Below, one piece after another: positions 15,469-18,768 of a DNA stretch of 57,878 nucleotides (within the stretch, counting starts at the first letter, position 1; every line of letters begins with the position of its first letter). Location of the stretch: positions 1,650,573 to 1,708,450 of the forward strand of contig NZ_MQWA01000001.1 in the NCBI RefSeq assembly GCF_002954445.1, read 5' to 3'. A program made the translations under genes and the position numbers. Below the pieces are notes generated by a model. It ran no database searches. It worked only from the letters and a program-made list of their open reading frames with translations, and was not told the DNA's origin. This stretch comes from Rubritalea profundi (GTDB lineage: Bacteria > Verrucomicrobiota > Verrucomicrobiia > Verrucomicrobiales > Akkermansiaceae).

Positions 15469-15588
15469 TTTTTGATTTGGTTTGATTTTGTTTTGTGCCG
15501 ACGCATCGGCGAGTTATGATTTGCGTCTGTATGGTGCCTGATGGCAACGCGGTATGGATATGTATGGAATCAAGCCTGTCGCAACGAC

Positions 15589-15669
15589 GAGCTTGATGAG
15601 CTTGATGAGCTTGATGAGCTTGATGAGCTTGATAAGCTTGATAAGCTTGATAAGCTTGATAAGCTTGAT
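15589..15669. repeat. 9-bp tandem repeat, nine copies in two variant blocks
   Basis: Five exact copies of gagcttgat are followed by four exact copies of aagcttgat (81 bp). It lies between the divergent pseudopilin and dnaK genes. It can be translated in several frames as Leu/Ile/Met/Ser repeats, but no start, leader or downstream domain supports a gene. The block structure of the two variants mirrors the 9-bp array at 1354-1416. Confidence 0.95.
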
Positions 15670-15791
15670 GAGCAAAGTTAACGAGCGTCTCTGCTCTGGC
15701 AAGGGAAAAGAACACAAGATCCGTGCTTTCTTGGTGTCCATTTTTGTATCGTTCCAGCTGTTGGAGCCCAATTCTGGTGAATACCCAGAAA

Positions 15792-15845
15792 TGGCACGAT
15801 CGTGTCAAAATGGCATGATCGTGTCAAAATGGCGCGGGTGAGTCA
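15792..15845. promoter_or_regulatory. Three 16-bp palindromic sites at exact 19-bp spacing
   Basis: tggcacgatcgtgtca (15792-15807), tggcatgatcgtgtca (15811-15826) and a degenerate tggcgcgggtgagtca (15830-15845) have starts spaced exactly 19 bp apart and share tggc...gtca ends. The first is a palindrome with one mismatched pair. The array lies about 100 bp upstream of the sigma-54-type element for dnaK and 320 bp upstream of the pseudopilin start. The layout fits an operator or enhancer-like array for a dimeric regulator. It does not match CIRCE. Confidence 0.6.
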
Positions 15846-15943
15846 CACTTGGCTGCGTCAAAGTGACCCAATGCAGGGTTTTTATTTTTATGAGGTAGAC
15901 TTAGTTGACTGATATTCAAGGGGTGGATGACATTTATGGAAGC

Positions 15944-15959
15944 TGGCACGAATCTTGCA
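15944..15959 (+). promoter_or_regulatory. Sigma-54-type promoter upstream of dnaK
   Basis: tggcacg-aatc-ttgca matches the -24/-12 consensus TGGCACG-N4-TTGCA at every conserved position with the correct spacing. A start point near 15970 would give a leader of about 68 bases. No CIRCE element and no sigma-32-type pair is evident. The palindromes at 15792-15845 sit where an activator would bind. Confidence 0.6.
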
Positions 15960-16016
15960 AAAGGAGAGGTAGAAAAGAAAGCTCTCTCTGAAAAGCAGTG
16001 GGCCGAAATCATTTAA

Positions 16017-17957
<1,941 letters not shown>

Positions 17958-18044
17958 GCTTCGCCGTCAAGAGTCATAGGTCATTAGTCAAGGGGCTAGG
18001 AAGATGCTCCGGCTAGTGACCTTTATTACTTTGCTATTTATAAG

Positions 18045-18422
18045 ATGAGTCAATCAATCAACGATCTAGAAATTTACCGTGAGGCTATGAGTCTCGGGGA
18101 AGAAGTCTGGTCGTTGGTTTTAGCTTGGGACTATTTAGCGAAGGACACTCTTGGCAAGCAACTGATTCGCAGCGCGGATTCAATTGCTGCAAATATTTCA
18201 GAAGGTTACGGCAGGTATCATTTCAAAGAGAATCAGAAATTCTGTTTTTACTCCCGAGGCATTCTCTTAGAGACTCAGACTTGGATAGAAAAAGCAGTTC
18301 ACAGAAATCTGATAGAGAAAGAAAAAGGCAGAGTATTATATGTTCAACTAGAGCAACTAAAACGTCGCCTCAATTCTTACATAAGCTCTATCGGTCCAAG
18401 ATCTGAACCTATTGACTCTTGA
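18045..18422 (+). CDS. Four-helix-bundle protein (23S rRNA intervening-sequence type)
   Basis: A 125-residue protein with the family signature GKQLIRSADSIAANISEGYGR and an N-terminal DLEIYREAMSL. This matches the S23/intervening-sequence family, which forms pentameric four-helix bundles of unclear function. Members were first found in rRNA intervening sequences but often stand alone and seem to move within genomes. It sits between dnaK and groES. It is flanked by gtcaagagtcataggtcatt on the left and a loosely inverted gactcttgacccc on the right, which suggests that it was inserted. Confidence 0.85.
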   Translation: MSQSINDLEIYREAMSLGEEVWSLVLAWDYLAKDTLGKQLIRSADSIAANISEGYGRYHFKENQKFCFYSRGILLETQTWIEKAVHRNLIEKEKGRVLYVQLEQLKRRLNSYISSIGPRSEPIDS

Positions 18423-18448
18423 CCCCTGTCCTTTGACCAAAATATAAA
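18419..18448 (+). promoter_or_regulatory. Housekeeping-type promoter for groESL
   Basis: ttgacc and tataaa are separated by 18 bp, 33 bp before the groES ATG. The -35 box overlaps the end of the four-helix-bundle gene. No CIRCE inverted repeat lies between it and the start. Confidence 0.5.
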
Positions 18449-18480
18449 TCATACAACAAAAATAGAAACTAATACTAATT

Positions 18481-18768
18481 ATGGCAATCAAACCAATCGG
18501 ACAACGCGTGCTGCTTAAGCGCGTAGACACTGAGACAGTATCTGCAGGCGGCATCGTTCTCGTAGATTCTGCTCAAGAAAAACCACAAGAAGCACTTGTT
18601 ATCGCACTCGGTACAGGTGGTAAAAACGAAGACGGCTCAGCATTTGAGTTCTCCGTTTCTGTAAACGACAAAGTACTTATCTCTAAGTATGGCGGCACTG
18701 ACGTCAAAGTAGACGGAGATGAACACCTCATTGTTACTGAATCCGACATCCTCGGAATTATTAACTAA
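18481..18768 (+). CDS. groES: Co-chaperonin GroES
   Basis: A 95-residue Hsp10. It starts MAIKPIGQRVLLKRVDTE and has the mobile loop region around TVSAGGIVLVDSAQEKPQEALVIALG and the usual end KYGGTDVKVDGDEHLIVTESDILGII. It caps the GroEL folding chamber. It is followed 33 bp later by groEL, the standard order. The leader is A-rich with no Shine-Dalgarno. Confidence 0.97.
   Translation: MAIKPIGQRVLLKRVDTETVSAGGIVLVDSAQEKPQEALVIALGTGGKNEDGSAFEFSVSVNDKVLISKYGGTDVKVDGDEHLIVTESDILGIIN

Follow-up and report, generated by a model that had tools for sequence, protein, structure and literature searches.

Conserved sigma-54-type promoter elements and putative activator sites in front of dnaK in Rubritalea profundi and other Verrucomicrobiota

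In the textbook picture, bacterial heat shock is controlled by alternative sigma-70-type factors or by repressors. For several bacterial groups, the accessible text of published work also connects chaperone genes with sigma-54. In Chlamydia, tandem sigma-66 and sigma-54 promoters precede hrcA-grpE, and the activator serving the latter has no DNA-binding domain (PMC7482065, PMC8762339). Heat lowered rpoN and raised this activator (PMC8762339). In Rhodopirellula (Planctomycetota), heat induced dnaK and left the rpoN transcript unchanged (PMC2754498). For Planctomycetota and Bacteroidota, enrichment of predicted sigma-54 promoters has been reported at the DnaK, GroEL, GroES, GrpE, DnaJ and IbpA gene groups (PLoS One 2025, PMC12316311). 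A literature search, in which subscription journals were thinly covered, returned no report of dnaK being controlled by sigma-54 in Verrucomicrobiota.

The window considered here is the whole analysed stretch of 57,878 nucleotides from Rubritalea profundi (Table 1). At 15944-15959 on the plus strand it carries TGGCACGAATCTTGCA, i.e., TGGCACG-AATC-TTGCA, 94 bp 5' of the dnaK ATG at 16038. The sequence-only reading had placed TGGCACG-N4-TTGCA at this position before dnaK, and the element is present exactly as described. It contains a GG-N10-GC core flanked by TGGCAY and TGC and takes the top -24/-12 position score on both strands (16.4 of 16.4; the runner-up reaches 14.8); no other place in the window fits TGGCACG-N4-TTGCW exactly. 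When up to two mismatches are allowed, the pattern occurs 11 times in the window against 9.85 expected, so that the motif by itself is weak evidence and the case needs comparison. The element would act as a promoter for dnaK, with transcription expected to start near 15970, some 12 bp beyond the -12 element, as judged from the -12 GC at 15957-15958; the sequence-only reading had named the same position.

Table 1. Features of the dnaK region in the window and one activator gene elsewhere in the R. profundi genome; dyad positions are counted from the -24 T
Feature	Position	Strand	Remarks
Dyad GTGTCA-AAA-TGGCAT	15802..15816	+	142 bp before the -24 T; score 8.2 of 10
Dyad GTGTCA-AAA-TGGCGC	15821..15835	+	-123; score 9.2
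Degenerate half-sites GAGTCA-N4-TGGCTG, weak	15840..15855	+	-104; by eye, in register with the 19-bp repeat
Dyad GCGTCA-AAG-TGACCC	15855..15869	+	-89; score 9.2
-24 element TGGCACG	15944..15950	+	sequence and conservation before dnaK in relatives
-12 element TTGCA	15955..15959	+	sequence and conservation before dnaK in relatives
Predicted start (~15970) and dnaK leader	15970..16037	+	usual sigma-54 promoter spacing
dnaK (Hsp70), 639 aa	16038..17957	+	PF00012, E 2.5e-250
23S rRNA-intervening-sequence-type protein (IVP, four-helix), between dnaK and groES	18045..18422	+	PF05635, E 3.5e-24
groES	18481..18768	+	PF00166, E 4.8e-29
groEL, ORF of 541 aa	18802..20427	+	read as GroEL from its sequence
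L001-type activator L274	C1:1188-1190 kb		adjoins a uppS-like gene

HrcA was found in none of 17 and none of 56 genomes (70 different), the same search being positive in 7 of 14 control genomes. No CIRCE element with up to three mismatches occurs in the window, and the best match before dnaK in relatives (the named loci, the best 80 of 409, and the phylum loci) reaches 13 of 18 positions. A regulon of the HrcA/CIRCE type, with an hrcA gene and CIRCE before dnaK, is not seen here, in line with the earlier reading, which had found no such control visible. Two HAIR-like matches in the window are at chance level and lie away from the dnaK promoter. Known RNA thermometers were not detected near the promoter with Rfam, the SpR08 and HOTAIR_2 matches being far below the gathering scores and inside a 9-bp tandem repeat. 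This repeat, AGCTTGATR in about nine copies (15590-15673), separates a pilin-like gene from the dnaK regulatory region.

Most of the dnaK transcript could come from a housekeeping promoter unlike that of E. coli or from an ECF-sigma promoter, the sigma-54 promoter being minor and condition-specific. DnaK is generally required at all times, which favours such an arrangement. The tandem sigma-66/sigma-54 promoters before hrcA in Chlamydia offer a precedent in the accessible text of PMC7482065 and PMC8762339. Against this arrangement, a scan of 15470-16040 for sigma-70-like sites gave none where 0.9 were expected; the scan knows only the E. coli consensus. A dominant promoter of this other kind is unlikely, though it retains appreciable weight.

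Comparison with relatives bears directly on the sigma-54 element. DnaK was present in 60 of 60 genomes of the family; 54 had a full-length orthologue with a readable upstream region, and the six others were dropped. Compared with first-order shuffles, the top -24/-12 score before dnaK was better than 95% of them in 53 of these 54 genomes. The same held for 79 of 80 named loci, retained as the best 80 of 409, whose titles include Rubritalea, Akkermansia, Limisphaerales/Pedosphaera, Opitutales and Methylacidimicrobium. All eight Akkermansia sp.-titled loci among the best 80 of 409 scored at least 16.0. In the phylum sample, the site passed in 20 of 24 and then in 23 of 24 loci; G062, G063 and G071 had truncated or partial upstream regions, and no match at the threshold was obtained for G092 and G103. 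Pooling left 172 non-redundant dnaK upstream regions after 10 of 182 had been dropped as near-duplicates. A score of 14 or more was reached in 160 of them and missed in 12, compared with 0.8% of 1287 dnaK coding windows and 4.1% on the reverse strand of the same upstream regions. The GG of the -24 element is kept in 171 of the 172 and the GC of the -12 element in 170. Outside the family, the site was found in 83 of 91 upstream regions, the shuffle mean being 1.6 and the maximum 5.

The gene for sigma-54 accompanies this promoter. It was found in 55 of 56 genomes, that of R. profundi included (PF04552, E 8.8e-59; TIGR02395, 412.2 bits against a cut-off of 277.35), and the single miss is a 580-contig assembly. 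The sequence-only reading had named the absence of rpoN and the loss of the motif in close relatives as grounds for giving up its proposal; rpoN is present, and the motif is kept both in relatives and phylum-wide. A -24/-12 site also lies 92 bp before rpoN itself in R. profundi (L293, C1:2730144-2730159), suggesting autoregulation. Two members of one genus, G089 and G104 (loci L258 and L215), have two rpoN genes each, and the -12 element of their dnaK deviates from TGC; the sequence preference of the second sigma-54 may be shifted.

Among 6-mers upstream of the -24 element, the strongest enrichment is seen for GTGTCA, GTGACA, GCGACA, TGTCAC and TGTCGC. They combine into dyads GNGACA-N3-TGTCNC, which form a phylum-wide unit. 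Of the 172 regions, 133 have a dyad scoring at least 9 located 45-170 bp 5' of the promoter, and the other 39 have no strong dyad; the corresponding rate in 1989 coding windows is 0.8%. The preferred place is -101 to -104 relative to the -24 element, with 61 of 198 dyad starts. Outside the family, strong dyads occur in 57 of 91 dnaK upstream regions (shuffle mean 0.32). In reading these counts, it should be considered that the consensus was derived from family sequences and then scored on those same sequences, and that the weighted score was set after the named set (best 80 of 409) and the first 24-locus phylum set had been seen. The clean tests are only the last 24-locus phylum set, first scored after the score was fixed and showing dyads in 23 of 24 loci, and the Hsp20 site described below.

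In the window, putative activator sites of this form, which the sequence-only reading had not named, lie upstream of the promoter (Table 1). The half-sites starting at -104 do not make a dyad by score, though this is the position of the dyad in most relatives. Dyads scoring at least 9 occur at three further, unrelated places in the window. A 16-bp palindrome, TGGCACGATCGTGTCA, was considered as the upstream repeat and rejected, being out of register with the phylum-wide unit.

In the R. profundi genome, the sigma-54-like pattern TGGCAYRNNNNNTGCW was found at 36 sites, and its reverse, used as a control, at 9. Of the 36, no fewer than 13 are inside ORFs and are probably chance matches. A dyad scoring at least 9, for which the null rate is 0.8% per 140-bp stretch, accompanies two of the 36 sites, namely those of dnaK and of an Hsp20 gene (PF00011, E 2.1e-15) starting 43 bp downstream of its sigma-54-like site. 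A second ORF, lying behind this gene, appears Hsp20-like on reading. Sites preceding the genes for glutamine synthetase, P-II, a carbon-nitrogen hydrolase and rpoN carry no dyads; the names amtB-like and nirB-like were given to further genes by eye, Pfam having no match on the fragments. Among the sites read in G090 and G111 (12 of 14 and 11 of 12, respectively), only that of dnaK bears a strong dyad; in G038, 14 of 31 sigma-54-like sites were read. It seems that the same sigma-54 acts on both nitrogen and chaperone genes, with the dyads distinguishing the two sets, since only the dnaK and Hsp20 sites carry them. The earlier suggestion of a nitrogen link for dnaK finds no support, because the nitrogen-type sites, those of glutamine synthetase and P-II among them, are without dyads of the dnaK type. 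The signal is probably folding stress, as the targets shared by the dyads are chaperones.

Three genuine sigma-54 activators with the AAA+ domain (E < 1e-60) are encoded in the R. profundi genome. One of them, L002 (C1:3749-3752 kb), combines REC (PF00072), sigma-54 AAA+ (PF00158) and Fis-type HTH (PF02954) domains and has the GAFTGA loop. Its clade has 28 members (support 100/99), one per genome placed (17 from the family and 11 from the phylum), and the orthologue of G075, added by BLAST, brings the count to 29 of 29 genomes examined. The recognition helix LGI[SH]R[RK]T is found in 28 of 28 clade members. Loci were available for 30 of the 42 activators in the set including G004 and G017 (27 read, then three more) and for 30 of the 44 in the set including G090 and G111 (27 placed in the tree, three read separately). 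In the small genomes G004 and G017 (1.5-1.6 Mb, 90% complete) and G090 and G111 (0.9 Mb, single contigs), no activator other than the L002 type was detected at E 1e-40, and all four retain rpoN and the dnaK -24/-12 site with dyads.

Directly upstream of L002 in R. profundi lies a gene for a soluble-looking histidine kinase (PF00512, PF02518 and PAS). A PAS-type histidine kinase gene adjoins the activator of this clade in G000, G038, G004 and G075; none was found in the 3.5 kb surrounding the G090 activator. Against NCBIfam, L002 missed the curated cut-off for all 25 models among the matches listed, the nearest being AtoC (463.5 of 714), with NtrC at 429.8 of 558.6. L002 and the dyads are linked by co-occurrence alone, and L002 is most likely the activator of dnaK.

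A further conserved clade of sigma-54 activators, the L001 type, has no recognisable Fis-type HTH and is reminiscent of Chlamydia CtcC. It was rejected as the dnaK activator, because it has no HTH and was missing from the activators read in the small genomes G004, G017, G090 and G111 and in four g3 genomes. Activators of this type could serve promoters without dyads.

The sigma-54 promoter might also be real and be opened by a different activator, even one that does not bind DNA, the dyads being bound by a repressor or co-regulator. Such an arrangement is compatible with the co-occurrence that links L002 to the dyads, and the L001 clade indicates that activation without bound sites is possible. 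It is made rather improbable by the genomes in which the L001 type was not seen, all of which kept the dnaK promoter; of these, G004, G017, G090 and G111 have the L002 type only. Moreover, the dyads are at the usual distance of enhancer sites. A chance origin of the -24/-12 match, for which the unremarkable two-mismatch count could be cited, is hardly credible and is rejected, because relatives keep the site at the corresponding position in front of dnaK, far more often than it appears in the control windows.

The preferred reading, to which a probability of about three in four is given, is that a working sigma-54 promoter drives dnaK, and perhaps groES-groEL, with an L002-type activator acting on the dyads in a chaperone regulon responsive to folding stress. 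RNA polymerase with sigma-54 would wait in the closed state at the -24/-12 element before dnaK, and an NtrC-family enhancer-binding protein would occupy the dyads at 15802-15869, about 90-145 bp upstream. Hydrolysis of ATP by the bound protein would then open the promoter. The conserved response regulator L002 is the most likely candidate for this protein and would be phosphorylated by the PAS-type kinase of the adjacent upstream gene. The regulon would comprise the chaperones DnaK and Hsp20, the most likely signal being protein-folding stress, and the sigma-54 system would stand in for the absent HrcA/CIRCE. The unaltered rpoN transcript of heated Rhodopirellula and the lowered rpoN of heated Chlamydia count against this reading. 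As far as the compared sequences can tell, chaperones in Verrucomicrobiota are probably switched on by a dedicated activator and not by the usual heat-shock regulators.

The extent of the transcription unit is less clear-cut. Among 110 loci (duplicates included), groES lies 51-191 bp behind dnaK in 91 and further off in 10; it was not found in 8, and L037 was left out of the spacing classes. The IVP-type gene between dnaK and groES is found only in the window, L031 and L113 among the 110. A separate sigma-54 promoter for groES was looked for and rejected, the best score being 11.9 in the window (17958-18480) and 13.5 in 11 other loci; no dyad of its own was detected for groES in 17958-18480. 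The gene is possibly part of the dnaK transcription unit. Several loci have hairpins between dnaK and groES, and groESL may therefore not be co-transcribed.

If the preferred reading is true, chaperone expression would be strictly activator-dependent, and Hsp70 would be driven phylum-wide by an ATP-dependent enhancer system. Sigma-54 would gain a likely essential duty, including in the gut bacterium Akkermansia, the loci of which have the same promoter. This could also be a reason for the retention of rpoN in very small genomes. The proposal is directly testable, since it comes with a named kinase, activator and binding site as candidates. A wider proposal, tentative and slightly on the doubtful side, is that a single ancestral kinase-activator pair was inherited phylum-wide and replaces HrcA, the core heat-shock response of Verrucomicrobiota running via sigma-54. 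The 0.9-Mb genomes would then keep sigma-54 essentially for chaperones, and the system would perhaps be ancestral in the superphylum with Chlamydia and Planctomycetota.

The target genes here are the same as those under HrcA/CIRCE and sigma-32 control. Unlike HrcA/CIRCE repression, the control proposed for dnaK is positive and enhancer-dependent; HrcA was not found in the 70 genomes, nor CIRCE in the window. The E. coli systems AtoSC, ZraSR and NtrBC share with the present one a kinase and a REC-AAA+-Fis activator of sigma-54; they have other sites and other targets. The predictions of PMC12316311 likewise place chaperone gene groups under sigma-54 promoters; in its accessible text, chaperones are not linked to Verrucomicrobiota by name, and the activator and its sites are not assigned. 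Chlamydia, of a related phylum, resembles the Verrucomicrobiota in having a sigma-54 promoter at chaperone genes and an AtoS/AtoC-type kinase and activator; the best NCBIfam matches here are of this type too, for the activator below the curated cut-off. According to the accessible text of PMC7482065 and PMC8762339, Chlamydia has HrcA/CIRCE and a sigma-66 promoter, and its activator carries no DNA-binding domain, whereas in the present case HrcA was not found and the activator is equipped with a Fis-type HTH. Sigma-54 at chaperone genes is already known or predicted in Planctomycetota, Bacteroidota and Chlamydia.
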